From Polychytrium aggregatum (taxonomy: Eukaryota; Chytridiomycota; Chytridiomycetes; Polychytriales): a DNA stretch of 64,000 bases. Below are positions 2,115-36,900 of the stretch, in pieces (positions within the stretch are counted from its first letter, which is position 1; the number at the start of each line of letters is the position of its first letter). Made by a program: the position numbers and the translations under genes. Location of the stretch: positions 372,001 to 436,000 of the forward strand of contig NW_026516222.1 in the NCBI RefSeq assembly GCF_025602895.1, written 5' to 3'. The notes beneath the pieces are model-generated. The model did no database searches. It was not told the DNA's origin and saw nothing but the letters and a program-made list of their open reading frames with translations.

Positions 2115-2360
2115 GGCGAGTGCGGCTGGATAGGAGGGGACGGCAGAGCCGAAGGTTGATGCTGACGGGAAACGCGAGCTTGAGCAAGTCAAGCGCCTGG
2201 ATCGCCCGCGCATCGAGGATCTGACCGGCGGCTGCTGGTTCTCACGGACTCGCTTGCAGCACTCCAGGCGGTCCACTTGAGGTGATGCGCCGTGCCAGCG
2301 ATTGTCCGTTTGTTTCTAGGCGCTGAATACACCCATCTATCGCTGCACTGCGGCACTTGA
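2115..2360. other. upstream region of TAF11
   Basis: This is the presumed promoter side of TAF11. Beyond open frames antisense to nothing recognisable I see no gene. The right side may hold more strongly decayed Fanzor sequence leading into the recognisable remnant at 2361. Confidence 0.3.
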
Positions 2361-2530
2361 GACCCAGCTGCTGGAGAGTGTGGAATCGCGATGCCAATGC
2401 GACGCACAACATGATCTCATCGCGCAGCCCGATTGTGGAGGCCAGAGAGCGACCTTTGCTCGCTCGGAAGCTGCCGAGGTGATCGTTTTTCGCTGCATAT
2501 GGCTTTGTTTGACGCATACTACGCTCTCAT
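2361..2530 (+). mobile_element. Fanzor element 3'-end remnant, copy 1
   Basis: This segment aligns by eye with the 3' end of the Fanzor gene at 5105-7477. In plus-strand translation it keeps WNRDANATHNMI, then a variable stretch, then VEARERPLLARKLPR and a TGA. The full copy has WNRDVNAARNMI, VEIGERPAVFTRRLPK and TGA. The RuvC-III Asp and the stop position are therefore conserved. Similarity continues past the stop, with GCTTTGTTTGACGCATACTAC corresponding to the downstream noncoding end of the full copy. The rest of the nuclease is absent or beyond recognition. Divergence is substantial, so this is an old insertion. It sits between TAF11 and the coiled-coil gene. Confidence 0.8.
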
Positions 2531-3645: not shown

Positions 3646-4121
3646 GACGGGATGGCGAGGCAAGGCTGCGTCAATAAGCGTTGCTTGATTCAGGTATGAC
3701 ACAATAGATGTACGAGTCGGATGATGCTGCCGATGCCGCTCGTTTGGCTGGAGTAGTCCAGGGGCCGGGGTTTGAATGTGGCCAGAGCAAAGTCATGAGG
3801 GCAGGAAGCATTCGCACAGCTAGTCGTCGCTGCGAATCGAGCTGGTGTGGGTGCGACGCCGAAAGTGAAAGCATCGACAGTCCAAGAACCCAGAGGTCGC
3901 CCAAGACGAATTCTGGCCAATCCTCGTTCCGCGCTGTCCGTGCGAACGGCTTGCGAGAACAAAACGGGACAGTAGTGTCCCTGGGTGCCCTTCGCATCAG
4001 CCACTGCCTTCAGCGCAGCGATCTGCAGGCCGCATGGTCAAAGCCATACGATCGTTTCCGGTCTCGGTTGGAGATCGAGTGGCTTTGTTTGTTCGGGGGC
4101 AGTCTTTACAGGCAATCCAAT
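3646..4121. other. intergenic, presumed host promoter DNA left of the mobile element
   Basis: I see no gene. Open frames on both strands do not resemble known proteins. The right border touches the candidate left terminal repeat of the composite element. Confidence 0.35.
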
Positions 4122-4134
4122 AAAAAACGGGACA
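4122..4134 (+). repeat. left terminal inverted-repeat core
   Basis: AAAAAACGGGACA, the inverted partner of 7550-7562. It lies about 60 bp before the first transposase-like frame. A TA directly precedes it. The sequence outside the 13-mer differs from that next to the right copy, so the repeat may be short or eroded. Confidence 0.6.
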
Positions 4135-4192
4135 CCCGGGTTTTTGACCATTCGTCGAATATTTTGTTACCCAATGTTATCGCGCGCTGGCC

Positions 4193-4825
4193 ATGACCAT
4201 TCGCCACACATCCGACTTTCGCACCGCCGCATTGCGATGCTACGCCCTCATCCATAGCCTGCGTAAGGTTGCCTCCATATTCAGTGTATCCAAGAGCACC
4301 ATCCATCGATGGCACCGAGGACACAAGCCAACCGAGTCACAGCTCGCAGATCCACTTTCTTCGAGCAGGCATGTCCAGTCATTCGCACCCTGATTGAACA
4401 GGACCCGTTCCAGACTGGTCCTGTGTTGCGATGCAAGCTCGAGTCCATCCTCCAGAGGAAAGTATCACTCTCACTCTGCCACACTGCCATCCACCGAGCA
4501 GGTCTCTCACACAAGAGGGCAACACACCTCTACAAGTCCAAGCGACTGGATGAGCGAGTGGCACAGTTCAGGGACCAGGCCCGCTCCATCGACCCACGAC
4601 GATTCGTTTTTGTCGACGAGACAGGGATCAGGAAATCCATTTTTCCTCTTTACGGATACTCACCGAAGGGTGCTCCGCTTCGCCAGCGCAATCACATGAA
4701 ACACAAGTCCGTCTCGGCTGCATTTGCCATCAACCACTCTGGTGTGCTGCATCGATCGCCGAGGATGGTCAGTGATCTTCACCCCACCTGCCTCGCCCGA
4801 CTTCAATCCCATCGAGAACTTCTTT
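4193..4825 (+). pseudogene. decayed Tc1/mariner-like (IS630-superfamily) transposase
   Basis: The remnant is spread over three frames. The first (from 4193) begins MTIRHTSDFRTAALRCYAL and contains an N-terminal helix-turn-helix: LRKVASIFSVSKSTIHRWHR. The second frame (4309-4770) carries further DNA-binding sequence, then RRFVFVDETGIRKSIFPLYG, whose Asp is the first DDE-type catalytic residue, followed by YSPKGAPLRQRNHMKHKSVS. The third frame, about 4750-4825, has VIFTPPASPDFNPIENFFG, the C-terminal catalytic block. The stretch that should lie between the first and last blocks, with the second catalytic Asp, is missing, so there is an internal deletion as well as frameshifts. Similarity stops at 4825, where the Fanzor left side begins. 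It cannot encode an active transposase. Confidence 0.85.
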
Positions 4826-4861
4826 GGGGTTGAGTCCCCACCGATTTGGGGTTTAGTCCCC
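4826..4861 (+). repeat. twin palindromic motif at left side of the Fanzor unit
   Basis: GGGGTTGAGTCCCC at 4826-4839 and GGGGTTTAGTCCCC at 4848-4861 are near-identical direct copies separated by 8 bp. Each is an imperfect palindrome with GGGG/CCCC arms, able to form a short hairpin. The pair starts exactly where transposase similarity ends, so it could be the left end of the inserted Fanzor unit or a promoter element. Function is inferred. Confidence 0.5.
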
Positions 4862-4969
4862 CAATCAAGCCGCCATTTTCGCGTTCACATCCCTGGCTTG
4901 AACCTCTCGGCGATTTTTGAACAGGGTCACTTCCCCAACCAGCCCGCAAGACGGGCTCCTGCTCTCGGG

Positions 4970-4976
4970 TATAAAT
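4970..4976 (+). promoter_or_regulatory. TATA box of the Fanzor gene
   Basis: TATAAAT lies about 129 bp upstream of the Fanzor ATG. A pyrimidine-rich stretch follows at about 4988-5020 and the ATG is in CCCCCATGCC context. Together these form a plausible dedicated RNA polymerase II promoter carried by the element. Confidence 0.5.
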
Positions 4977-5104
4977 GCCACACCTTCGTCCTGCTGCTTT
5001 CTTCCCTCATCTCGCCTTGATCTGATCATCGCGCTATTGTACGATAAAAAAAAGTCTCTGCTCTGACCAGTACCACTGGCAGGCATCCAGCATCCTCTGC
5101 CCCC

Positions 5105-7477
5105 ATGCCTCCGAAGCGTAAGGGTACCGGTGATGGCCAGCCTCGGCCACCCAGGCCCAAGAAAGCCAAGTCACAGTCGGAGCCTGTCTCTGGTTCGTAT
5201 TCTGATCCCACGCATGCTTGGTCGTCTGTTGCTCCGTCGCTCACCACCACTGCTTCTGCAGATCCAATGGATGTCGATCCCACCGAGCCTGGTCCATCTA
5301 CTTCCTCGAGTACCGGCAAGCGATGTCCCAAGTGCGATGGCACCGATCACGAACGCTGCAACACTAGCAAGTGTCCCAAATACCGGCCCCTCAAGAGTTC
5401 TGTCGTCCCACTCGTGGATGGAAGGTCATCCGCCCCTCAGTTCAGCTGCTTCAAGCAGACGATGGATGGCTGTTGTCTCAATCCCGCTCTCCGCGACAAG
5501 ATCCAGGCCACCGTCGAGGCCATGACCCAGATCCAGTTCGAGGCATCCAGGCTGCTCAACCTGCACATCCTCCGGTGCATCGAGCAGGATCTTCCCGTCC
5601 CCGTCATCTCCAAGTCCACCCCTGCTTTCATCCGCCAATGCTTCAAGATCGTCCAGGACGGTGCCCTCTCGCCGACCGGGGACAATGAGAAATACAACGA
5701 GCATCTGGTCGCTTCCTTTCGCGACTACCAGACCACTCGGCACGCAGACCTGCCTCCGGCCCCTCGTCTGCCTGATGGTGCTCACAGTCAGCTTCTCACC
5801 CTGGCTGTCAATGCCTATGCCACCAACTGCACCACCCACCTCGACCTGGCCTACTGGCGACTCCTTCGCCGCTTCTGCGCTGCCGTCTTCCCAGCCAACA
5901 AGCACAAGCACGACGCCATCGAGGCCTGTCTCGAGCTCTTCGAGAAACCAGGGCAGACTCCACCCAAGGCCGATCTCGAGTTCCTCTATCCAGACTTTGG
6001 CCACGTCCTGGACGAGTTTCGGTACAGCAACGACCAGGACCGCTTCCGGGCCCTCCATCGCCTCTCACACCATGTGGGAATCCTCGCCCGGGACAAGATG
6101 GTCGACAATGTCCACAAGTGGATCGACTGTGACATGCCCGCCCTCCGAGTCACCGAGCTGCAGCGCCAGGCCAAGCTGGACGAGCTCACTACCCAAGGCA
6201 TTCCCTCCGACAACAAGAGGTTCACCAAGGCCAAGTCGGAGCTCGGCACCACCAAGGCCAAGATCAACAAGCTGGCATCCAGACTCAAGTGGGCACTCAA
6301 GCAACTCGCCGTCGACACTCCTCCGGCCGTGTGCACGATGGTTCCTCTGTGCACCACCAAGGCCAAGTATGTCAAGATCGACACGGTCACTCTTTGGAAT
6401 CTCCTGGGTCCAAAGAAGCGCCTTGGCCTCACCAGGGACAAGCTCAAGGAAGAAGGTGAGGACGGTGTCAACAACTAGGATCGTCTCTGGCGCAGCTGCT
6501 TCAAGCTGCGTAGTTCCCTCTTCCAAGAGCGGGACGTGAACAAGAAGCTGTTCAACTACGAGATCAGCACCGATGGCATTGGATGCACCATCGGCCTCGT
6601 CAAGTTTGTGCCTCGAACCGATCGCACCGAGACCTCCGAGCCTCCTCCGACTGCCGAGCAGCGCATCCAGGCCCACATCGGCAGCTCAGACCCCGAACGC
6701 ACCACTTGGATTGGCATCGATCCTGGAGTCGGCTCCATCTTCACGGCGGTCATCCAAGCACCGGGCCACCAAGACGAGGTGGTCTCGTTCTCCAATGGTC
6801 ACTATCAGCACATGTGTGGCCATACGTCCAACACCAAGTGGCACAACACCATGAAGTATCGACTCAGCATCGAGACCTGGATGTCGACCACCCCCTCGCC
6901 CAAGGTGCAGTCCTCGAAGGCCTTCAAGGTCCATCTCGCCCATGTCCTGCGACCGGAGCTGCGAGTGCAGCTCGACTTCCACCTTGGCAAGAAGGCTCGT
7001 CACCATCGCTTCACGGGCCACAAGAGGCGCCAAGTGGCCGTCGACAGGATGTGCAAGGCCGTCCTGAAGCACGCCCCGAAACGGACCGATGTGGTGATCG
7101 CCTTTGGCAATGCGTCATGGCGTCAAGGCAAGGGCTATGCATCCAGCCCTCGGAGGCAGCGATTTGCTCAGTACTTTGAGCAGTTCGAGCACCACCGACG
7201 CCGTCCCAATCACCATCATGGAAGCGTCAAGGTAGTCTCGACGAACGAGTTCAACACCTCACAGGTGTGCTCCAAGTGCCTGGAGCCAGTTCGGCTGGGG
7301 GATCTGAAAGCGCCCAGTGTTGCGAATTCCCACTTTGTCAGGAGCTGCAAGAATCCCAGCTGCCGGACAGTGTGGAATCGCGACGTCAATGCGGCGCGCA
7401 ACATGATCACAGTATGCAGGTCGATTGTGGAGATCGGAGAGCGACCGGCGGTCTTCACTCGGAGGCTGCCAAAGTGA
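5105..7477 (+). pseudogene. Fanzor-family (eukaryotic TnpB-like) RNA-guided nuclease with one in-frame TAG
   Basis: Fanzors are eukaryotic relatives of transposon TnpB that cut DNA guided by a noncoding RNA from their own locus. One frame of about 790 codons runs from the ATG at 5105 to TGA at 7475-7477, broken only by TAG at 6476-6478 (codon 458). The N-terminus is basic and NLS-like (MPPKRKGTG, PPRPKKAK), followed by a Cys-rich cluster CPKCDGTDHERC from about residue 74. The C-terminal half has the RuvC motifs. RuvC-I is WIGIDPGVGS (Asp codon 6719-6721). The alternative Glu is in STNEFNTSQVCSKC (codon 7247-7249), next to a zinc finger (CSKC, CKNPSC). RuvC-III is WNRDVNAARNM (Asp codon 7382-7384). 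The canonical TnpB Glu region reads VVIAFGNAS, so only the alternative Glu is present. No intron fits over the TAG. Family call very firm; activity doubtful. Confidence 0.93.
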
Positions 7478-7562
7478 TCTGTTTTATTTCTTGTGGCTTT
7501 GCTTGACGCAAGCACAGCACATACTACATGTTCATGGAAACGGCTATATTGTCCCGTTTTTT
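7382..7562 (+). ncRNA. candidate Fanzor guide-RNA (omega-RNA) scaffold region
   Basis: In TnpB and Fanzor loci the guide RNA scaffold overlaps the 3' end of the gene and runs to the right end of the element. Here the last about 95 coding bases plus about 85 noncoding bases are the only part also retained in two diverged copies (2361-2530 and 10919-11057). The noncoding part contains a hairpin GCTTGACGCAAGC at 7501-7513 that is matched in the inverted remnant (GCTTG/CAAGC arms, loop changed). The guide would be read from host DNA just right of about 7563. This is inference; no transcript evidence is available. Confidence 0.35.
7550..7562 (-). repeat. right terminal inverted-repeat core
   Basis: TGTCCCGTTTTTT, the reverse complement of 4122-4134. 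The flank on its outer side (TTCTGAATA) is also found, inverted, outside the same motif in the remnant at 10919-11057, so this end is well supported. Confidence 0.65.
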
Positions 7563-7566
7563 TCTG

Positions 7567-7572
7567 AATAAA
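7567..7572 (+). terminator. possible polyadenylation signal after Fanzor
   Basis: AATAAA about 90 bp past the Fanzor stop and just outside the terminal repeat core. It could serve the Fanzor transcript or be chance. Confidence 0.3.
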
Positions 7573-8332
7573 GTGTAGTGCATCTGGTTGATCTCCTTGG
7601 ACACGCTGTTTGGACATGGTCGGAACAACGACACTCGCTTCGTTTTGGGTGCCCTGGAAACGGGCATTTCGCCCTGGTTGAGTACGCCGCCAACATGCCA
7701 GCCGTTGTCCACATTGGGCTGCTCGGTCGTCTCCACAATCAGCCTCCACCCGACGGTCATGGTTTGTATATCGCTGTTGCTGGGGCGGCATGTTGGATAT
7801 ATCGGATGCGCAGGCTCCAGAATTGGGGAAAGCATTCGATATGGCGCTTCGGGGAGCAGGGGCGATGTCCTTTGAGAAGCAAAGTTGCGATTTGAGGCGC
7901 TGAAGCGACGGAGAATAATAATAATAACAAATGATGCCGATCCAGCAGAAGCAATGCCGATCCACCCAAGGCAGCGGCGGTGAGGGACCGTGCCAGTTCA
8001 TGACACAAGGGTCTGAGTCACATGGGTGGCGGCTTGTGCAGTGATTGATTCTGGCGCGAATGCCCATCCGATCGATTTGTGCCTTCTGGATGGGGGTTCG
8101 GATTCGATCTCGACAGCCAGGTTGCTCCCCCCACCCAGTCCCAGTATCGTGCGGCAATGCCATCCACCACCCAGGTCATTTTCGCCACCACCCACACTTC
8201 CGAGGCAAGCCGAGAGCTGTCGCTGGGTATATCAACCGGCAGCACTTGCCTCTCTCCTCAATTACCATCTCAGCGAGCCAAGCCCGCAATTGAACCGAGT
8301 AGCCCTTCACCACCCTTCATCGACAACCAAGC
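7573..8332. other. intergenic between mobile element and glycosyltransferase
   Basis: I see no gene. Long minus-strand frames cross it and overlap the Fanzor 3' end, but they lack family resemblance. The first bases right of the element are where a Fanzor guide sequence would lie. The right part should hold the glycosyltransferase promoter; no clear TATA box was seen. Confidence 0.35.
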
Positions 8333-10722
8333 ATGCCCACTCCGCTCGTTGCCATCTATGCCTTTGGCTCGGCCGGCGATGTTATGCCGATGCTCGCTCT
8401 TGGCCGTGCGCTGCACACCCAGTGCGGTTACCGTGTGCGAATCGTTGCCCCCGCCAAGTGGGAGGAGAAGGTGTGCAAAGAAGGATTGGAGTACTTCGAC
8501 CTCAAGGTGAGTGCGATTGCCTGCTCGTCTCGTCTGATCGTTGTCAGGCCGAAGGAATCGCGGCAGTCGCAGTTGATTCGTTCCTGATGTCGTTGTTCGA
8601 CTTCCTCCTCTCCCAGAACGATCCCATATCGAAAAGCACCACCACGTTTGATCCAAAAGAAGTTGGCCGGTTCGTCACGCACCGTAAAACCATTCAGGGA
8701 ATCATGCCTCTCATGCGGGTAAGAGCCAATGCACTGGCACACGCATAATGGGACATGAGCCTGTGTCTTGCATTTTGCACCTTGCATCAAACTAATCAAC
8801 ACCGCACAATCCCGTCCTCAACGATGGCTGGTGCGACAGGCGCTGATCCCTGTTCTCAAATTCCTCTTCAAGACCGCCGACGAACATCTCAAAGGAGTCG
8901 ATCTGGCTATTTTGACAAACGCTGCTCTGCAGCTTCGAGAGGACGTGAGTTTCAGTTTGGCAGCGCCATCTGGCTGTGATCGTTGCTGCCAACACCATCA
9001 GAACAGCCACACGCTGCTCTCGTGATGCGAGCGATGGCAATGCACCGGAGTCGCTGCTCCAGCCCTGCCAGCCCTGCCAGCCCTGACCCTGTCCATTGAT
9101 GTCATATACAGTGCGAAAAGCGAGGTATCCCGACTGTGGCTTGCTATCTCCAGCCTAGCCAGGCCACGAAGGACTACCCACCCCCTGTTCTTGGATTGGA
9201 GTATCAGCCAGACAACGACAAGGCGAGACGCAGCAATCTCATGACCGTAAGTCGGTCTGACACCCGAGCCGCGGCATGCTTGTCATCTGCCAGGGACGCC
9301 TGTCACAGAGCCGACTGTCACAGAGCCGAATGATGACCCACAGAGTAACGCTTTGTATCTCTGGCTGCCCGCACCAGTGGTTGTCCCTTGGGATCCGCTC
9401 CCTCTGGATCTTCAATCCGATCCTTCAAGAGAGACGACGAGCACTGGGACTCCGCCGCGGATTCTTGCCTTCGTACATCACTGCCATCTATGATATCATT
9501 CAACTGATGATCAGGGAGGCTCGTGCGCGGGCTGCCATGCCGTTTATTTGCACTTTCAGCCCAGCACTGGTTCCCATCGCCTCCGATTTGTGAGTACCGG
9601 GACAGCAGCACGATGTCGATAGTGGTTGTGGTTGTGGTTGTGGTAGTGGTTGTGGTTGTGGTTGTGGTTGTGGTTGTGGTTGTGGTTGTGGTTGTGGTTG
9701 TGGTTGTGGTTGTGGTTGTGGTTGTGGTAGTGGTTGTGGTTGTGGTTGTGGTTGTGGTTGTGACGGCACGCCAACGATGATACTCACCCTCGCTGCTGTG
9801 TGTTTCGATCAATAGCAAGCCCACCATGGATTTCGTCCAGTCTGGTCCTCTCCAGCTGGAAGCAGATCAGTACGCCGAACCATTCTCCGCTCCCGTTGAG
9901 CTGGTAAGCAGTCGCCTCGATCAATCCGTCCTCGGTGTCGCTTGGTGGCTTCGTCCGTCTCGAGCACATTGAGCCTGTCCGTCTTGAGCACACGCGGCCA
10001 CACATGCCAAGTCGTCTGCCACCACAGCCGGTCACTGATCCAACACACCCCTCGATCTCCAGGACGAGTTCCTTGCCTCCGGAAAGATCGTCTATTTTGG
10101 ATACGGCTCGCTCCAGAAGCTCGGCCCAACCTCCACCAAGGAGATCGACCACATGACCATCTGGCTCACGGCCATCCAAGAGCTGGAGTCGCAGGGTGTG
10201 AAGTTGAGAGCCGTCTTTGCATTCTCGTGGGGCCCCGACGATGTATCCGCCGACCCGACCAACACAAAGTACCATGCACTCCGAGAGCAACTGGATGCCA
10301 TGATCCAACAGAAGAAGGTCTACCGCCTCGTCGGATCGTTCCCGCACACCTACCTGTTCCCAAGGTGCCATGTGGCAGTCCACCACGGCGGCGCCGGAAC
10401 AACTCAGACGGCAGCAAAGTACCGGCTCCCGGCTATCATCGTGCCGCATGTCGTTGACCAACCCTTCATGGCCTCGGTCGCCAAGTACCGAGGCATCGCC
10501 AATGTGATCGATCTGGACGACTTTTCGACCTCAACGCTGGTCGGAGCGCTGAAGGACATCCTGGTGGACCGGGCCGAGTATTTCAAGAAGAACTGCGACC
10601 GCATCGGCGACGAGATGGCCAAGGAGAATCCCATCGGCGATGCTGTTGCACTGGTCCAGAGAACGCTCCAGAAGGCTCGCTCTGCCACGTCCGACGCAAG
10701 TTCTGAGAACACCGCCGTTTGA
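8333..10722 (+). CDS. GT1-family glycosyltransferase, sterol glucosyltransferase-like (7 exons)
   Basis: This enzyme should transfer a sugar from a UDP-sugar to a lipophilic acceptor such as a sterol. Proposed exons are 8333-8506, 8548-8718, 8840-8944, 9112-9246, 9378-9589, 9816-9903 and 10063-10722. All introns are GT-AG and phases agree, giving 514 residues. The N-terminus PLVAIYAFGSAGDVMPMLAL is the glycine-rich loop of the GT-B fold. Mid-protein LGLRRGFLPSYI and CTFSPALVPIASDF match the acceptor-side region of sterol glucosyltransferases. The C-terminal donor site is VAVHHGGAGTTQTAAKYRLP from about residue 400, followed by VDQPFMA. The first intron is only 41 bp, and the intron at 9590-9815 contains a long GTGGTT array. 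There is no PH or GRAM domain, so it is the short form of the family. The acceptor is unknown; glycolipid substrates other than sterols are possible. Confidence 0.85.
9621..9762 (+). repeat. (GTGGTT)n hexamer array in an intron
   Basis: About 23 tandem hexamers with two GTAGTG-type variants, lying inside the fifth intron of the glycosyltransferase gene. All six frames are open through it, which creates spurious poly-Thr, Gln-Pro, His-Asn and Val frames that are not genes. Confidence 0.95.
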
Positions 10723-10918
10723 CCAGGATCATCGACTCGGGCCGTTTTTTTTCTCCAGCCCCCACAAATTTTCGACCAGGGGATATCACCCCAAGTTCCT
10801 AGCCAGCGACATCGTGGCAGAATCGAATCTACTCTACTCCGTTCTCAGAAACGAAGAGAACATTGCCTCATTTCAATTGAACATGTAGTTTTGATGCCTG
10901 TGCCTACACTGTATTCAG
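10723..10918. other. 3' flank of glycosyltransferase
   Basis: Presumed 3' UTR and short spacer. No gene or clear AATAAA seen. It ends at the terminal motif of the inverted Fanzor remnant. Confidence 0.35.
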
Positions 10919-11057
10919 AAAAACGGGACACCACATCCGCTTCCATGAGCGTGTAGTATGTGATAAGCTTGCGTCAAGCTCAGCCATAAGATATAAACAG
11001 ATCACTTTGGCTGCTTCCAAGTAGAGGCCACGGGTCGCTCTCCGATCTCCACATTCT
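10919..11057 (-). mobile_element. Fanzor element 3'-end remnant, copy 2 (inverted)
   Basis: Read on the minus strand, this segment has VEIGERPVASTWKQPK then TGA, matching VEIGERPAVFTRRLPK and TGA of the full Fanzor. It is followed by the same downstream noncoding sequence: the GCTTG/CAAGC hairpin, a CATACTAC block, and the terminal AAAAACGGGACA with a TATTCAG flank on the outside. Only about 140 bp remain; similarity stops near 11057, just before the RuvC-III region. It is closer to the full copy than copy 1 is. The longer minus-strand open frame beyond 11057 has no Fanzor resemblance. Confidence 0.85.
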
Positions 11058-24902: not shown

Positions 24903-27900
24903 CTAATCTGTATTCAGCACCAGGCACACTCCCTGCAGCACCCAGTGGCTAATGTGCTCGTTGGTGCTCAAATCGGCGTCGAAAACCCAGCCGATGCCGC
25001 TGGCATTGCGTCGCTGCTGAGTGGTGTAAACGGGCGTCCGGAAGGTGTTGACAAGCTTGAGTCGATGCATCTCGATTGGGATAATCCGCAGAATCGGAAG
25101 TTCCTGGAGCAAGCGGCCGCCAGATTCGAGCCGAACGAGCGAGCCGGACTTGAGGTCCCATCCGGCGCCTTCGAGGTACAGTCCGGTCACATAGCAACCC
25201 GATGATGGCCGCTCATTCACCTCCGAAGGATTCACAAACGCTGTCACCTGTGTGTAGAGCGTCGAACGATCCAGTGGCCAGCCGTTCTTGCGACAGGTTG
25301 CCTGAACGAGGGCCGTGATGAACGCCTCAGGGACATGGAGCCCCGAAAGCCATACAACGGCAGGCTCGCCGTTCTTGATCCACGACGAGTATTGCTGAAA
25401 GCGCCTCTCGAAGAATTGCATCCATCCGCCCAGACCTTTCTCGGTCTGGGGAGCCAGTTTGCGCCAGGCGCTCGGCAGGGCACCGTTGTAGAGGGCATTG
25501 GCCAGATCATCCAGCTTGGCGCTCATTCCAATCTCGCCTTTCAGCGCTCGTCTCAGGTCCTTTAGCGTGCTTGCCATGCATTCGACGAGGATGTTCCAGC
25601 GCTCCAATTCCTGCAGCAGCACAATCTGCGTCGGTGAAGGGACGCCGATGGACTTGTAAATTCTCGGGACGTCGTATGTCGTGGGCAGCCTACTCTGGAT
25701 ATCCGAGGCAATGTTTGATATGAACTCTTCGCGACTGATGCCCCCGACTCCGTCCGAGGACCGGGGCTGCAGCGAGATGAGCTGGCTCCACATGTCCTTC
25801 ACGGCCGTCGTCAAGTAGCCGATCTCAGCGTCGGGGTGGAGCCCGAACACATCTGGGGCATTGTTGAGGGGCAAGCTCTCGATGTATGCAATGTACTGTT
25901 CGCGCGTGCCGATCTCGGGGATTTTGTACTCGACGCTCGGGCTCTTGAAAAAGTAGAACGGCTGGAACGAGTCGAACAAAAAATCGCCCATGTACTCGTC
26001 CAGATAGGTCATCAACACGCGGCGGTCGTAGTCGTCCGTGACTCGCCCACCGTAGATGGTCTCGCCAATCAAATACCGCAGTGTTGTCCAAGGGATTTTG
26101 CCGTCCTTTTGTCCCGCAGTTTTGTCAAGGTAGGTCCGGAGGATCGTCAGGCTGACACGGAAATCGGATTCGTTAAAGTCGTACTTGACGTTCCAGCCAA
26201 TCTTTCCGTATTTGCCTCGCTCCTGCACGACGGCATGGAAGAATGCCTGCACGTAGATCAGCGGCTTGAACATTTCGTGCGAGCAGTCCTCCATCACCTC
26301 GTCGGTCAGCTTGAAGTAGTTGCTGCGGATGTTGAGTTTGAGGCCGTTTGGTGGCTCCGTCACGACCTTGAGCGACTTTTGGAGGATGCCGATCGGGAAC
26401 TGCGGGGTGGGCTCGGTGGTGAGCCACAGCCGGAAATCCTTGTGTGGCTTTTCGATCTTCTCGAGAACTTTCTCCAGATGGCGAAGCCAACCAACGAGCA
26501 GGTGGCAGTTCTGCAGCATCAGCCACTGTCCTCTGGCGACGGCAGTCTCCAGCAGCTGCAGCGCTATCGGGGCTTGTCCCTGTCCAAGCGACAAGAACTT
26601 GAGCCTGTTGCCGCCAAATCCGAGATTCTCTGCCAGTTTCTGAAGGTCACTCTGCGGGTCGGCGCCCGGACTGAGGATGAACACCACGGGGCTGGTGGGC
26701 GATGACTGGTCAAAGATGTTCTGGAAGTTGACCACGGGCGGCATCACGTACTTTTCGCCAATGTTTTTGATCACAAAGCTGGTGACGGCATTGTAGACCC
26801 GGTCAATCCGGAAGCAGCGCAGGAGACAGAGCTGCTGGAACGAGGTCAGGCGCTCCGAGTATCCCATCGGGAACGACGCAACTTCGGGCGCCTCGAGCTT
26901 GGCCCAAGTGTGCCACTCCGCTTCGTTGCCCTGCACATGCGTCACGAGGGAGCCAAAGTTTGGATGGATGACCGAGAGCTTTAGCAGGTCCTTCCAGCCC
27001 TGGTCGGTGATCCAGATGAAAGGCTTGGGAATCGACGGCTGCTCAAGGGATATATCTCCCTTGAGGAAGAAGTTGAGCTCCGTAAGATCGACCTGGCCCT
27101 CGTGCTCCATGAGCTTGATGGTCATCTGAAAGGAAAACATGAGCTTGTGCTTTTCAAACAAACCCGTGCATGCGTAGTTGTATACCGCGTACTTGAGCGT
27201 GTCCATGATCTTGTTGAGTCGCTTAGAGAGCAGTGCGTCGGGCTTGCTCTTGTGAAGCGAGCCCACAAAGACCTCGAGGAACGCTGAGAGCGAGTACTGG
27301 TACATGGGATTGATGGTCGACAGCTCTGCAAGAACAAAGAAGAGCACCGCACCGCACTTTGCGGCTGGTCGATAGGCATCGCGGGAAGCTTCGACCTCTG
27401 CAGAGGTCTGGTTGGCAAGCACAAGCTTCTGTCCGATTTCGGTTGCCTTGGACTTGGTCTCTTCCAAGGTGCGGATCAATTCGACATTGTCAAGCATGAG
27501 GCCAGTCGACGAAGCGAGCTCTCGAAGCAACGTGTCCTCGAGGTCCTTCAGCAGACTCTTGTTCTGACTCATCTCGATAATGAGGCGCTCACGCTGCTCT
27601 TCGAGCTCCTTGCGTTCATGACCAACGACGACGTTGAGCAACTGGTCGCTCAGGCCCTTGAAAGTGACGCTGTAGTTGATCACAATCGCCGACCCAAAGA
27701 CCTTGGGCGTGTACGTGGGATTGGCAAGGCGCGAGGTGAGATAGAGCCTGAATCCTGGGTCAAAGTCGACTTCCTTGTCGCCCAGGACAATGAAGCGCCG
27801 CGAGCCCGCCACCTTGATGTTTTTCTCGAGAATGTTGTCGATAACGGGATCGATGTATTCGTCCACGTCTTCAAACAAGAACGGGAAGCCGTAGGTTATG

Positions 27901-30900
27901 GCCATCTCCAGGTGCTTCAAAAAGTCCGGGTCGTTGAAGGATGACACCTTGAGATTGTTGGTGGCCTCTCGTTTCTTGATCCAAGTCACGGCTTGCTGCT
28001 GGGGGTCAATGCAGAGGGGGAAGCGCGACGCCTTGGTTGTCAAGATGCCATTCTGGATCGACAGCTCGTCCGCCGGCAGGCCCTCCGATGCCCATTTCGA
28101 CATTTCCACCTCCGTGACCAGAAGCCGCTCCACTCGAAAGGTCGCACTGAGCGGCACAGCTCGGTTGGTGAGGTCGCTGACCCATCGTTTGTAAACGAGC
28201 TCGTTGCGAAGCTCCCAATTGAAGGCTCCTGTGTAGCTGACAAACCCCGAGATCAGCAGACAGTCGCCCAGCAGCTGGATCCGCTGGTCTTTGAGAACGG
28301 CCAGGTCGTTGCCCCAGCGCACTCGCTCCGAGCCCAGGCCGGATATGAGTTTGTCAGCTGCGAGCAGGCGTCGCTCCATGACCTCCGCCATCTCCTTCAG
28401 TTCCAGCTGCTCCGACTTTGCCTTGTGGAACTGCTGCTGCAGAGTCGACAGCTCGTCGTTGAGCCGCTTGAGTTCCTTTGTGATCTTGTCGAACTCATTC
28501 TTGGAGAGCTGTAGGTTGCGCTCCAGCGTCGCTACCGCCGCGCGCTTGGGCTGGATTTGCTTGGCGACGTTGCAGTATCCGACCACGGCGAGCACAAATG
28601 TCAGGAGACCCGCACCGGCGGAAGAAATCTCCTGCATGCGAGTTATGGTCACATCCAGCTCGCGCAAGATGCTTTTGACGGCCTTGATCTGCCCGCTGGA
28701 GATGTTATCTACGTCGAGCGAGCTGAGCGACGATTTGAAGTCGGTTTGCGACATCATTGTCTTGGCACTCTTCCACGAGACATCCTTGATTCCCTTGATG
28801 ACGCAAATGCACTCGCACACCTTCTGCACCTCTTTGGGTGGCTTGGCAAACGACCGAATCTCTGTGATTTCCGACGACGACAGGTTGGCCAAGGCCAATC
28901 GAGCCTGCTCAAGCGCCGGCAGCGCCTCGGAAAGCGCCGCCTCGGCTTCTTCCTTGTCCTTGGCAATCTGGATGTTCTGGGCATCGAGCTCGCTCTCCTT
29001 CTTCTGGGCAAGCCCCTTCTTCTCCTCAGCCTGGCGCGTGTTGGTTGTGATGACTTCGAGTAGCTGGTTGCATGCCTCAGTCTTGTTCTTGACGGCAATG
29101 TTCTGTTCAGCCAGCTGCTCGTTCAGGACATCGAGCTGCCGCGAGGATTCCTCCAGCTTGCCCAGTCCAGACTCCAGGCGGGCGCACAGCTTGCCGTTGA
29201 GCTCACGGTTTTCTTCCAGCAAACGGTTGTAAGTGCTGATGTAGTCAAGATAGTTCTTTGGTGTGACATAGTTGGCCCGCCTGTACTTTTGAAGAAACTC
29301 GATGCTAATGTCGCCCACGGAGAGATGGACGCCAACCATGTGGGCAACGATTTGCGGGCGCTGCTCGCTGGGGATCAGACCTTCCTTCAGGAAGGCGTCG
29401 GCTACAGAGAACAGCGCTTGCTCGGGCCATGGAGGAAACCAATCGATGACGGTGTTGTTGACGAGACCCGGGAACGAGCGACATCGCTCGCGCAGCTTGT
29501 CGCCTTGCGGCGACATGCACAAAACCACATGTAGGTTGTCCCAGCACTTTCCGACAAAGTACTGCCACATGTTTTCGCGGTTCTGCACCATCCCAAGGCG
29601 AGCAACCTCATCACGGATTCCGCCCAGAATAGCGTCTTTCTCCTCGTCTTCATAGAGGGCCGGCACCATTCCACTGGTGAGCATGTTGTTGATGAGTTCC
29701 AGAAAGCCCTCTTGGACGACGTGGGCATCGGTAAACATGAACACGGTCTTTTTTCCCGAGCCAAGCATCGAATAGAGGATTTTGAGGCTCTCCCGGAACT
29801 CGACTTCGCTGTACCCCCGAGTCAGGGTGATCTCGTAGACGCCATATCCAGCTGCAAAGGCGGCCAGGCGGGTCAGCGATTGCTTACCCGAACCGCCTAC
29901 GCCAACGAGTAGACAGTGACCGCGCTTCATGCGAATCACACGGTGGATTCGCGTCAAATGATCGAGCGCATCGTCGAAGAGCACCAGGTTCATCTTGTTG
30001 AACTTGTCGTTGTACTCCTCCAGGATCTCCTGGAAGATCGATCGGATGGCGGCAAAGTCGAGGAGATCTTCGTACAGCCGGACGGACTCTTCCTGCAGCG
30101 CATAGCGAAAGTCTCCAAAGAGAGACGGATTGCGGGTGACGTATTCCTCGTCTGCTTCAAAGTTGTCGAGGATCTGGCGATTGAGCAGCTTGTTGACGTA
30201 GTCCTTGTCTGCATCGGTTACGAGGCGGTCGTGGAAGACTCTAAGGGACTCGTTGCGCCAAAGGCGGACAAATTGCTTGGAGGTTTGAAAGTGGTCCGGA
30301 GTCGACTGACACAGCCCTTCGTACACACGCGAGATGTCGCGCAGGTTGAAGATATAGTGGAACTTTGATGGCGTTGGCATCAGTGTCTTGGATATCTCGG
30401 CAAAGATCTTCAGGGTGAGTGCCGTCAGCTTGTCCGCAGCGCGACGCACGTCGTCCGAGAACGGCGCTGTATGCCCCTGGATGATGCCCGAGTAGATGCG
30501 GATGAGCGATGCGTCCTTGGGGAATGTGATGTTGAAGACCGAGAACAGCGAGGCAAAGCGGGGGTCGATGTCGTTGCGGCCGCCACCTGGGGTGCCCATG
30601 GATCCGAGACACTGCACGTCTTTGAGATACTTCCAGTTCAGCTCCTTTCCGCGGTCATAGAGTCCGCCGCGCTCGATCAGCAGCTTGAGCAGCGCAATGG
30701 GCTGCTGTGTGCCGTAGGTGTCCTTGGCGGGCATGTTGAGATCGTCTATGAACACAATCAGTCTCTTGCCCGCCGCTGGGCCGTACGTGTCCTTGGTGCG
30801 CTTCTCGACATTGACCTCCAAGTTACGCTGCACATCAAGCGAGGTTGTGCGCGACGAGAAGCTTATGTTGAGAATCAGGTTCTTGTCCGAGGGCAGAACT

Positions 30901-33900
30901 CGCAGATAGTTCTGGACCGTCACTGTCTTGGAGGTGCCCACCTCACCAACAAGCAATACTGGCTTCTTGATGCCAATGAGCTTCTCCAGCAGCCAGGTGT
31001 GGCGCACGGTGTCGAGCGTGGGCACCAGAATCTCGTGGAATGAGCATGATCGGCTGTGCTCGTATGCAGGCACGTAGTTGTTCCAGGGCACCCACTGCAG
31101 CTCAGAGGCATCAAAGTGGTAGTCGTACAAAGATTTGTCGTTACCGGGCAGCTGTCCGAGTACCACCGCCGCGGCCGTGTGCACCAGCGGGAGCTCCGAG
31201 AGCTTCTTGACGGCATCCGAGAACTTGATGCGGTCGTCTTCGAGCAAGCTGGCGCCAACCGACCATATGAGGGACTGGATAAAGACACCCTCGACAATGG
31301 CTTCCTGAGCGAGCTGCTTTGGGTCTGTCAGCTGCATCTCGAGGATGGAGCACAGCTGCATCACGGTGTTGAGGCCGGTGACGGGTATCACGCGCTTGAG
31401 AGGATCGCCCATGAAGCCCTGGAAGGTGCCCTCCAGCACATACTCAACCAGCGATGGCACATACTTATTGAAGAACTTCATGAGGCATTCGACCTTGGTT
31501 GGACGGCTGGCCAGCCACTTTTGGTAATACGGTCGGTAGCCCAGGTTCTTTGGGTCCATGTAAACCATGCCGCATCTCGAGACCGTGGCCGGGCTGGCGT
31601 ATTGAAGGTCACCAACCTCAAAAAGCAGTGCTACATGCTTCTGCAAGCGGATGCGCTCGCCGTTGGGCAGTGTCAGCAGCTTGTTGTCGTCCATGACCGA
31701 GTTCATGTTTTCGACCCAGACGGCATCAACGTCGCCATCAAAGACAATGTACTTGCGTTCCTTGCGATCGGTGGGTTTGTTGGTCTCTCTGAAGATGTTG
31801 GAGAGCAGACCGTCGGTCCAGTCGCGCGTGGTCTGGTCCAACACACCGTACAGCTCTGCGACGGTAACGGCTTTGGGGTTGAGGATGTACAGCTTGGTGG
31901 GGAGTCCCAGCTTGGTCTGGGCCTTGGCAAGTGTGTCGATCACCACGGTCTTTCCGCCGCCGGCCGGGCCGACCACCATCGAGGTGTGGCGGGTGAGCAT
32001 GGTTTCGTACAGCTGCACGACCTTGTCGACCTGCTCAGGGACCAGGATGTATCCAGAGTCGCGAAGGATTTCCTCGACGGCATCGTTGAAGCTCGGATAG
32101 CGGACACGTGGGCAATCGAGACCTGGAAACAGGTCAGTGATGAGACCGAGGAAGAGTGGCACGTCTTCAAAGACAAACTTTGGGAGATTCATATCGCGCA
32201 GGGCCCGCATGAGCACAACGTCTTCATTGAGGTCCGGGGACCCGCGCTTGAGCGAGCCCGCCATGACAAGCACGGACTTGAGCGCTCGTAGTCCAAAGTC
32301 GTAGTGGTGCTGCTTGGAAAGCTGCCCCTTTGCAAGCTTGTACAGAACCACCATTTTCTTGGCCAGACTCTTGGCCAAGGTGAAGCCTTCCGAAAAGAGC
32401 ATGATCTCACAGATGAGCTCGAGATCTGGAACGGCCATGACAACGGGCCTGAAGAGCGCTTTGAGGTTGTCGGGAAGCTCGGTGCGGCCGGCATAGCCAG
32501 GATTCATGGTGATGAAGATGCCTGTTTTTTTGTCGAGCGAGATCTCGTTGCCCTCGAACTGAAAACGCTTCAGGCCAGCGACGAGGGCGTTCTGGATGGT
32601 CTTGATCTGTGCCGAGATCACAGAGAGCACAGCCAGCTCGATTCGGTTGAACTCGTCAAAACATCCCCAGGCGCCTGTTTGCACGAGCCCAGCAAAATTC
32701 TGCCCCATGGCGCGGTAGTCCATGCCGTCACCGCAGTTGGTGACCATGCACAGCAGCCCCATTGCCTTGGCCAGATCCTTGACGGTCTCTGTCTTGCCGG
32801 TTCCAGCCGGGCCAGCTGGGGCCCCTCCGAGCTTCATCGAAAGTGCTTGTGTGAGCGTTAGATAGCATCGGTCTGTCAACGGAGTGATCACCAGTCGGCC
32901 GTTGAGCCCCATGTACTCGTATCCATAGTCAAAGACGCCGTTACACTGGCGCACGATCAATTCGTCTGTCTGTCTGTCCCAATAGAACCGCAGCTGCGAC
33001 TCCCACTCGAACTCTCCCTCGTCTGTGATCGAGTCGCGCACAAAGCGGTCGACAATGTCGCGAGCGTGAACATCGATAATGATCTGGGAGTTGAGTTTCT
33101 TTCGATCGTTCGAGCTCAGGTCGGAACGCACTTTGACAACAAGTTCCTCCATTTGCTCAGCGAGTGACTTTGAATACTTCTTCATCGCCAGCTTGTTGCC
33201 GAGTCGGATCTTGCGGAAGACATCCTCGACTTCCCATGTCCACCACACTTGCGAGCCAGCAAGGGCCACCATGCCCTGGTAAGCCAGGATCCAGGGAAGG
33301 CGCTCCATGTCGACGTAGTGGAAGATGGCTTCCTTGTGCAGCGTGCGATTGGTTTTTTTCATCTCAGACTCGACGGCAAGCATCCACTCCTCGACGCGGC
33401 CCTCGATGGGCACGACGCGCCTGAACTCGAGGCACTCGCCCTCGGACGACGACATGCCGATGACTGCCTTTTCGTTCTTGCCCGTTCCAAAGGTCAGGCG
33501 CAGGATGTTGTCGAACATCTTGATGATGTGCTCCTGCACGTTTTTGGGGTCGTGACTTCCCAGGATCGACAGCAGCTCTTCGTCCGAGATGAAGAAGAAC
33601 CGCGGGAAGGCGTTTCGCTTTGACTCGAGATAGTCCGAGAGAGACTTTTGGCACGATTCGAGCTCGTTCGACAGGTTTTGCAGGAGCTGAAGGCGACCCT
33701 CGGCGTTACATGCCTCCATGACGGAGGTGTGCTTGGCCGTGTCGCTCATGAGCTTCTTAAAGGTCTTGTCGATGCGGTCGAACCTGGCTGCCTCCTCCGG
33801 AAGCTGCTGGCGAATATCGCCCGAGCCTATAAAGATCGACTCGAGATACATCCATTTGCGCTGGACAATCATCCAGACGTCGATGACTTCGCCAATGTGC

Positions 33901-36900
33901 GACAGGATCTTCTCCCACTGCTGCACCGAAGGCAAGAAGGCCGTTACGAAGCGAGAGGCTCCCATCGACTGGAGCGACATGGCGTTGTCGTCCAGGGCAG
34001 TCGTGATTTCATCGACGGCGCCAAGGATGAAGCCGCGATCCTCGGTGCCCTTGGTGTACTTGACGACAACAAATTTTGTGTTGCGCCAGGTGTTTTCAAT
34101 GTCACGGATGCCGTTTTCGATACTGAGCTCCTTCATAGCCCCGGACACAATCTCGCCGATGGCCTCGGAGTGTTCGTGCAAGTTCATTGAGAAGAGCTTC
34201 TCGAGGGTAAAGATCTCGGGGTTCATGTCAAAGCTTTTGCCGGTGATCTCCATCAAACGCTTCCAGTGGCGGTCGCGAAGGGCCTCGTTTTTGAGGTCGG
34301 CAAAGAGTGGGATCGAGTCCTTGAAGGTGACGATCTTTTCGGCAACGACGTTGTAAGGCGGTAGTTGCTTGAGCTCCTTGGGCATCTTCTTGAGCCTCGA
34401 CGAGAACGTCTCGACACCCTTGTTGAGGACGTTGATGTCGAGGTTCGACCACAGCGTCGTCGACCATCCGTTGATGGCGTCCTTGACCTCGGTGTAGAGC
34501 TCGTAGATCTTGTCGAGCTCCTTGATTTCGCTCTCGATCTCAAACAGCTCTGGGTACGAGGTGATGATCAGGTTGAACAGCTTCTCGGCCTTGACCAGGT
34601 GCTCGCGCTTGGCTAGAAAGCCAGCGACCATTTCCTTGGACTGCTTCAGCAACTCGAGACCGTGATCCATGTCGAGGTCCATGGCGCCGGGGCCGTTGAC
34701 GGTGAACTCCTCGCGCGCACGCTTGAGCTCGGCCTTGAACTCTTTGACCTGGTTCTGGGTCGTGTCGGTGAACTTTGCCTTGACCGGGATCAGCGAGTCG
34801 TCAACGCGGCGCGCGGTCTCAAGCATCTCGGCCCACTTGACCGGCAGCTCGTTGGCCATCGCAATCTCGTCCTCCGAAATCTCAATGTTGTACATTCGGA
34901 AGATCCGATAGCCTTCAATGACGTCCTGGTATTTGACTTCGACTTCCTCTGTTGCGCCGCGGATCTCGGCGATCACGTTGAGGACAAAGGTCAGGTCGTC
35001 GAGGGTGGTGGGTGTTCGCTGGAGATCTTCGTGGTACTTTTGCATCCTCTCGGTGAGCTCGGTGAGTCCTTCCTTTGTTTTGATATTGAGATGCTTGCCT
35101 TTGGGCAATGTCGCCACCGCACACCAACGCTGTCAGTCTGATGATCAGCGTGCTGGAGTGCCCGGGCAAATGCGCGGCAGCAACCGAGACACACTCACCT
35201 ATAGATACTACCCAGCTGGTGGCCTCGCTATGAATCGCCGCTTGAAGTGGCAGTGAAATGACCCGAATAAATCCAATGTCTTTGACGGTGACCTGATTCT
35301 CGACATCGACAGCGAGTTTGGAGTAGAACGCCAACTTTTCGTCATAGTTGATGATTGTGGGCTTTTTCTGGGCAAACTTTTCCAGCGTGATAACCTAGGA
35401 GGTTCCGAAGCCAAGTGGTGAGCCCATATTCACCCAAGACAACCGGTCCCTTCCCTTGACCAGAGGCTACAATGGTCCGCTCAGACCTCCGCTCACAAAA
35501 CGCACGTGGAGCCGCGAGCACAGGATCACAGAGCTCCGCCGGCGCCGACGATACAACAGGGACGATCTTGATCGGGTATCAGGGCCCCCAAACAAGTCGT
35601 CGAACTGCCAATGCCTCTGCTACATCGGCACGCACCTTGTCCACTTTCCACAGCGGGCGGTACTTGCGCCATGTGTCGAGGTAGCCGGAAAGCTCTCCAA
35701 AGGTCCTTGTGACGGTGGTGTTGAGCTGCGAGACCAAGGCTATGATTTTTTGGTTGCAAACCACGTCGGAATGGAAGCTAAAGACCATCGGCTCTTCGTC
35801 TTCGCTGATTTTCTGAGGCGGCGTGATGTGGCAGGTGCCGTTCTGCCAGCGATGAAACTGCTTGGTCGAGTCGATTACTGATCGCGCAAACTTTATAATC
35901 ATCTTGTAAATCTCAGCAGCGAGCGGTGCGATCACAATCTCGGGAGCCGAGAGCGATGCAAAGACCTTGAAGAGCGGAGCGGACCGCTGTGGCGGGATTC
36001 GGAACGGCGTCGGACCAGGCTTGGTCTTTCGGCTGGTCACTTGGCCCATGAGGCTTTCCAGATACTGTAGATTGTTCACGACCATCTGAGGACCAATCGG
36101 AGAAGTTAGTGATGCTATCGTTGCTATTGTTGCCATCAACGTCAAAGACACAGCCCGGCCCAGCCACGATGACGAGACGGATTCCAGCGCTCAAGTCGGG
36201 ATGTGCCATCAACTTCCTGATGTGGCGGCCAGTGAGTATAGTACAATACGGGCTCAGCGACTTACAAAGTTGAGCGCGGAGAACACCCGCTTTTCCCAAT
36301 AGTAGTAGTAGTCCTTGAGCACCTTGCTCTTGCCTGTGTTGGTGCCAGCGACGAGCGACTCCATCTTGATGAGAAGCGGACCGATGCTGCGATATTTCAT
36401 GGTCATGCCCTCCAGAGTGTTCACTCGATGCTTGTTGATGTAGTCAAAGAACTCCTGATAGAGTGGCCATTCGCGGCGATGTCAGAACGGTCAAGTGTGC
36501 CAGCGCACATCGGTGGCCTCGTGTCTTGGATAAAGCAGCGCAAGCAAAACCAACTCGCTCAAGCGGCGTGATCCGAGAATGTCAACTAACATGGGCATCA
36601 ACAATGTCGCTCGATGTGGGCAATTCGACCAACATTGACTGTGCGATCTGGTCGACCGAGCGTGCGATATTGGCCGAGTTTTTGCGGATCTGGTTCACCA
36701 TGGATGAGAACTTGTTGATTTCCTGGGAATTCAGGATGGGTGTAGCCACCAGATGTTAGTGCCTGAGTGTATGGGATGACCGTTGAGCCAGACAATGGCA
36801 CCAGCCGTGCTACACAGCCACGCAGATTCAGCCCACCTGGTTACACCTCTGGATAAAATCTGGGATTCCGAGGGAGTTCCAGTTGAGGCGTGTAAAGCCC

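Follow-up and report, generated by a model that had tools for sequence, protein, structure and literature searches.

The reading frame at 5105..7477 of the window, by which is meant the whole 64-kb stretch of DNA analysed, belongs to a selfish family of mariner-hosted elements in which a Fanzor1 nuclease probably cuts empty sites, with repair restoring the element, and of which the window copy is a damaged member. The gene family, its motifs, the element, an asymmetric T at its left flank, a sister module and selection on the frame can be read from the sequence, and from these we infer the RNA, the cutting and the repair. The biological role of Fanzors is called unknown in PMC10432273. Hundreds of element ends, two Fanzor modules that ride on almost the same transposase, and same-site pairs in which both copies are filled make the idea of cutting and restoration testable by counting, for it holds that the flanking motif should be predicted by the module and not by the transposase.

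The element and its transposase

The element, of the IS630/Tc1-mariner type, occupies 4109..7575 on the + strand (3467 bases), comprises a transposase remnant and the Fanzor frame, and recurs elsewhere at 94-97% identity. Repeat and end searches placed its terminal inverted repeats at 4109..4134 and 7550..7575 (both +), and these are bounded by TA target-site duplications at 4107..4108, where a preceding T gives TTA, and at 7576..7577, where the preceding base is G and TTA is hence absent. The sequence-only reading had claimed a Fanzor gene with its whole locus; the gene stands, but the locus is larger than was supposed (4107-7577) and includes a transposase remnant that had been overlooked. 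The Fanzor of the window is thus carried by a eukaryotic transposon that is not of the IS607 type but an IS630/mariner element with TA duplications. The element has inserted, in antisense orientation, into the degenerate right end of a second Fanzor element (3956..4106, approximate, - strand), which was recognised by flank homology and has an inverted-repeat-like end at 3956-3974. The window also holds two old remnants of related Fanzor right ends, at 10904-11056 (-) and 2333-2516 (+), which match the end of the window family (family A) at 76-81% identity.

An IS630-family DD34E transposase pseudogene was identified at 4193..4948 (+) from Pfam DDE_3 pieces, tblastn with a sister transposase and comparison with copies L025 and L110. 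Relative to L025, a copy at the same site, it has suffered two internal deletions of 134 and 126 bases near 4747 and 4835, and it is without the second catalytic Asp and the C-terminus. The transposase is intact in L110 (contig C44), where it is 310 aa long, has DD34E spacing as counted by eye and matches the NCBIfam IS630 model with an E of 3.2e-36, above the model cut-off. By our own count, a stop-free transposase frame of 325 aa was present in 46 of 138 match rows, which include family-B copies (see below) and came from 129 scored out of 727 candidates.

Elsewhere in the window a single open frame of 3409 aa (24906-35132, - strand, 10.2 kb) matches dynein heavy chain over the 2000 aa scanned and also has an axonemal 2/5/8 coiled-coil match, and a long simple repeat at about 9594-9780, adjoining the next gene, gives rise to artificial Val-rich and Thr-rich frames on the two strands. 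There were no Rfam matches at gathering scores within the 64-kb window, and ARAGORN (bacterial code) found none.

The Fanzor frame

The Fanzor1 frame (5105..7477, +), delineated by Pfam, motifs and profile alignment, runs from an ATG at 5105 to a TGA at 7475-7477 and is interrupted only by one in-frame TAG at codon 458 (6476..6478), which splits it into stop-to-stop stretches of 476 and 332 aa in the same frame and which also occurs in L016 and L046, two copies at one other site. The window copy could yield at most a 457-aa fragment that ends ahead of the RuvC domain; the earlier term "near-complete" is apt for it, a single TAG before the RuvC domain being the only interruption. The motifs named in the sequence-only reading (an N-terminal Cys cluster, GIDPG, NEFNTSQVC, a zinc finger and WNRDVNAARN) were all found, as were the basic stretches near the N-terminus, MPPKRKG and RPKKAK, a putative nuclear localisation signal. 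The Cys cluster is a zinc-knuckle-like CX2CX4HX7C at codons 74-90 (5324..5374), a motif that is present once in the family-A protein and twice in that of family B; in the literature searched, no paper contained both "Fanzor" and "zinc knuckle". The TDG motif of the Fanzor1 WED domain, as described in PMC10711439, lies at codons 489-491 (6569..6577), the RuvC-I Asp of DPG at codon 539 (6719..6721), the alternative RuvC-II Glu at codon 715 (7247..7249), the C4 zinc finger at codons 722, 725, 748 and 753 (7268..7363) and the RuvC-III Asp of NRD at codon 760 (7382..7384; RD at 759-760). When three copies from family A were aligned with two relatives from family B (alignment A1), the DPG, the NEFNTSQVC with its Glu, the four zinc-finger Cys, the NRD and the TDG proved invariant. 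PMC10711439 lists DPG and TDG among the features of Fanzors, together with a rearranged Glu that stands six residues ahead of the zinc finger; Glu 715 lies at this distance from the first zinc-finger Cys.

The second half of the window frame matches Pfam Cas12f1-like_TNB with an E of 5e-10. When a profile of A1 was compared with the PDB, the top match was SpuFz1 (8gkh; E 4.5e-4 over 338 profile positions), and GtFz1 was matched at E 0.039 with only the C-terminal zinc-finger part aligned. In the printed profile alignment the three acidic residues of the window family (codons 539, 715 and 760) align with SpuFz1 D383, E541 and D606, all of them among the metal-binding residues named in PMC10432273; this numbering assumes that one constant offset, 394, applies along the fused chain of the PDB entry, and all three residues agree with it. 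Support for SpuFz1 fell to E 0.058 with a nine-row profile (A2) containing more family-B rows, and phmmer with a single sequence gave no PDB match at E 0.01. Judged on sequence, it is near certain that the window frame is a Fanzor1, because it combines DPG, the rearranged Glu, TDG, the zinc finger and RD with SpuFz1 as the best PDB match, and the Fanzor identity proposed earlier is upheld by these hallmarks and by the A1 profile. A best match to a non-RuvC transposase family, which the sequence-only reading had named as the outcome that would overturn it, did not occur for the window frame. That the gene is instead a Fanzor2, a bacterial TnpB or a contaminant is scarcely credible: weak NCBIfam TnpB matches, the best at 24.4 bits against a cut-off of 100, lean that way, but TDG, the rearranged Glu, the size, the mariner host and the two best A1 matches speak for Fanzor1, and the dynein heavy chain makes the contig eukaryotic and counts against contamination. 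A bacterial origin was ruled out by the motifs and the contig content.

Copy number and maintenance of the family

A search of the genome (64.7 Mb in 418 contigs) that allowed up to three mismatches recovered 276 right and 396 left ends, counts that include ghosts, same-site duplicates and, amongst the left ends, family B, which differs by one base; reversed-pattern controls gave no matches. The frame that had earlier been described as a new member of the Fanzors belongs to this high-copy family. Forty long copies were compared, these being best matches or exact-end copies and hence a non-random sample, and a stop-free Fanzor frame of 790 aa was found in 23 of them, with all three motifs letter-perfect in 20 of the 23; a whole transposase was found in none of the 40. 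Across all pairs of the long copies dN/dS was 0.34 (gap and stop codons excluded), which indicates that the Fanzor frame is under purifying selection. The Pfam match, the frames kept in the family and this ratio put the existence of a real frame on the Fanzor plan, as first reported, beyond chance. Each of the stops at codons 400, 458 and 519 is shared by two distinct sites, so broken copies either move themselves or have their sequence copied into others.

Several Fanzor families are present in the genome, including some of about 880-977 aa and shorter TnpB/Fanzor2-like frames of 447-477 aa, and Pfam PF07282 gave at least 150 matches over the cut-off (all of the 150 scored, from 663 first-look candidates). 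At L074 (290-1699, -) the N-terminal third of an IS607 TnpA (positions 5-73 of the 187 in the NCBIfam profile) is continuous in one open frame with a TnpB/Fanzor2, as either a fusion or a deletion product; a 477-aa open frame occurs at four places. A search of IMG/VR for relatives returned 41 pattern matches, none of which was confirmed.

An asymmetric T at the left flank

Fifty loci with flanks reduced to 42 distinct sites once eight same-site pairs had been merged. A T precedes the left TA at 41 of the 42, whereas the mirror base at the right end is found at only 5, and the addition of 31 left ends (5 duplicates dropped) brought the figure for the left to 67 of 68 distinct sites, against a background in the window of 401 T in 2814 TA. 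There is also an A or T two bases ahead of the left TA at 55 of the 68 sites (p 7e-7). Genome-wide, counting perfect-end copies only and with same-site duplicates included, 172 exact left ends have the T and 6 lack it, and the mirror A accompanies 40 of 210 exact right ends and is missing from 170 (p 0.06 against background).

A second family, B, provides a control. Its first 1004 bases, comprising the left end and the transposase, are 94.7% identical to those of family A (one copy compared whole), with the transposases about 95-97% identical, and at the transposase stop codon it switches to another Fanzor (40-43% identical) and another right end. Left ends of the family-B type (TACAGCC) have the T in 7 of 13 places and at 5 of 10 distinct ones; neighbouring sequence confirmed 8 of the 10 as family B and another one gave no match. 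The T is present at 4 of the 8 verified sites, compared with 67 of the 68 family-A sites (Fisher p 2.6e-4, with a small family-B sample). All four bases occur before the left TA in family B, and an A or T stands two bases before it at 7 of the 8. Because of this difference the left-flank T appears to track the Fanzor module rather than the left end, and a predicted Fanzor target motif of (W)TTA fits these sequences better than a preference of the transposase. Three family-B2 copies (L073, L080, L081) have related right flanks, perhaps from a repeated target such as a subtelomere.

Diverged relatives of the insertion sites bear on the origin of the T. Three stretches related to the window site (L001), 72-75% identical and free of the insertion, already read CTT at the junction, and an empty homologue of L004 has the T as well, less cleanly, there being alignment gaps at the junction.

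Same-site copies and empty sites

Eight pairs of loci share both flanks. Over 11,857 bases of flank the pairs differ by 16 substitutions (0.13%, leaving aside three gaps of 9, 25 and 26 bases), and between the same pairs the element itself shows 301 differences in about 23,060 aligned bases (1.3%). Pieces of the window element are 95-98% identical to those of its partner on contig C383, and over 9.9 kb further on there are 13 differences in 9,903 bases. Even the length may differ, as in the pair L007/L040, where a 3480-base element in one copy corresponds to a 1114-base ghost in the other. In six pairs the proportion of differing columns at which both letters were present in at least two other copies was 80/103, 49/60, 23/30, 12/16, 29/38 and 22/29. 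Copying between copies, for example by template switching during repair, fits these differences; assembly error may also be their cause, and the fact that in some pairs they come within about 30 bases of unique flank argues against short-read polishing error.

The eight pairs were found because both copies were filled and are therefore uninformative on empty sites. In a joined-flank test of 14 of the 34 sites seen once (40 scored out of 467 first-look candidates), a partner contig was available at 8 of the 14 and all 8 partners were filled, 7 of the 8 with an element of another length, one a ghost of 311 bases; no clean empty allele was met with at the 14 joined sites among the 40 candidates scored. 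Eight filled partners out of eight are too few for a claim of drive. The junction of L017 was matched across at 83% in contig C10 and was set aside, as it lies in a tandem repeat.

A candidate guide RNA at the right end

In SpuFz1 a 75-nt scaffold is followed by a guide of 14-15 nt and the target motif CATA is composed of CA and TA (PMC10432273), and the target-site duplication is described as part of the Fanzor1 scaffold in PMC10711439. By analogy, the 3' end of the element plausibly gives a guide-RNA scaffold (7478..7577, +; stop codon to right TA), followed by a guide of flanking DNA (7578..7592, +), although the support is weak. In the best fold these 100 bases form two hairpins closed by pairing of UACAU with the final GUGUA, TA included, and some family-B cuts show UACGG/CUGUA at the equivalent place and others do not. 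The fold has a z of -1.98 against shuffles, 7 of 200 of which were as good, and the last 75 bases alone have a z of -0.42 (56 of 200 as good); the corresponding family-B stretch gave -1.64 and a left-end control +0.60. RNAalifold with 31 distinct right ends (from 52 sequences) revealed a single pair altered on both sides, in one sequence, together with several pair-breaking letters, and mean diversity in the 3' non-coding stretch (0.025) is hardly below that of the transposase region (0.030).

Both ends are retained in ghosts whose length is 283 to 385 or 1114 bases. In all 11 ghosts read, 99-100 bases separate the stop codon from the right end, but the 11 represent no more than four length classes. 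Thirteen of the 40 long copies, the window copy among them, agree exactly over the final 100 bases of the window element, and its final 250 bases are those of L025, which has a full frame. The right end of the window copy does not differ from that of full-frame copies and could load a Fanzor made elsewhere.

A proposed mechanism and its alternatives

Under the reading that we regard as probable, intact sister copies would supply both a Fanzor1 nuclease and a cut-and-paste transposase of the DD34E type. Transcription of the right end would yield a guide RNA, with a scaffold that extends as far as the right TA and, beyond it, the first bases of flanking DNA as the guide. The loaded nuclease would seek (W)TTA and then the guide sequence. 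At a filled site the left side would read TTA and then transposon, the right side GTA and then the guide sequence, and the site would be spared because its right end reads GTA and not TTA; an empty sister or homologue would present TTA followed by the guide and be cut, and repair off the filled copy would restore the element. A bolder version can be put forward only tentatively, in which the element is an RNA-guided homing transposon. Its Fanzor module, made up of the nuclease, the guide RNA and the right end, would drive the mariner to both alleles, could pass from one element to another with the transposase stop codon as the point of exchange, and would determine which insertions persist; were it true, same-site copies of differing content would be footprints of template-switching repair.

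The TTA asymmetry might alternatively reflect a target preference of the transposase complex, with the Fanzor cutting elsewhere or not at all, which we think rather unlikely. The two element ends differ, so that the transpososome could be asymmetric, the transposases of the two families fall short of 100% identity, both share the weaker A/T bias two bases before the TA, and at exact right ends the mirror base slightly exceeds its background frequency. The TA itself is palindromic, and transposases of the Tc1-mariner superfamily act as symmetric dimers; both facts speak against an asymmetry of this origin, as do the mirror base, which is far from fixed at the right end, and family B, in which a near-identical left 1 kb has the T at only half of its sites. 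Very improbable is the notion that the T belongs to the left end of the element and has been misread as flank: it is as conserved as true end bases are, and a clean empty allele was missing from the joined sites, but the near-identical end of family B has all four bases in that position, and the diverged empty homologues of L001 and, less cleanly, L004 already carry the T. The family could also be a dead relic in which the Fanzor is passive cargo with no present role and every copy is decaying. Both genes are broken in the window copy, the full frame is missing from 17 of the 40 long copies and the whole transposase from every one, and the same stops recur at two sites each; against this stand the dN/dS of 0.34, the 23 full frames and the third of the transposase match rows that are open over 325 aa in the candidates scored, and we hold such a relic to be unlikely. 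The preferred reading, that of an element whose Fanzor1 cuts empty sites, allows sister copies to predict a target motif for an uncharacterised nuclease ahead of any bench screen.

Comparison with known systems

The combination of Fanzor1 with mariner elements and the existence of chimeric sets (PMC3627910), like ghosts and flank-plus-TA motifs (PMC10432273), have already been published. In the literature searched on Fanzor, mariner, chytrid TnpB and homing, as far as those sources were available, no report was found of elements with a transposase in common in which the target motif goes with the Fanzor module. The closest characterised relative is SpuFz1 from the Spu-1 elements of Spizellomyces punctatus, likewise a Fanzor1 with an alignable D-E-D and TA duplications (PMC10432273). 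Spu-1 resembles the window family in having ghosts that keep the right end and a motif made up of flank plus TA; no transposase was found in Spu-1 elements, whereas the window family has a DD34E transposase. The similarity is remote (E 4.5e-4), the protein SPu-1-1p has 633 aa (PMC3627910) against 790 aa here, and the SpuFz1 motif is CATA (PMC10432273) as opposed to the predicted (W)TTA. GtFz1 of Guillardia theta (PDB 9cer; PMC10432273, PMC11423790) is also a Fanzor1 and its motif, TTAA(N), opens with the same TTA, but its locus seems to be without inverted repeats and transposase (PMC10432273), unlike the window family.

The elements PGv-1 and PUl-1 (PMC3627910) unite a mariner-type transposase and a Fanzor1 in one element with TA duplications, as here, and the chimeric sets in the same paper have a common 5' transposase half and differing 3' halves in the manner of families A and B. 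PGv-1 is viral and single-copy, whereas the hundreds of ends in the present genome make insertion-site statistics possible. A functional parallel is the plasmid gene drive of IS200/IS605 TnpB (PMC11870625), in which the guide records the insertion site and empty copies are cut; that system is bacterial and has another transposase, and such cutting by the window family is a prediction.
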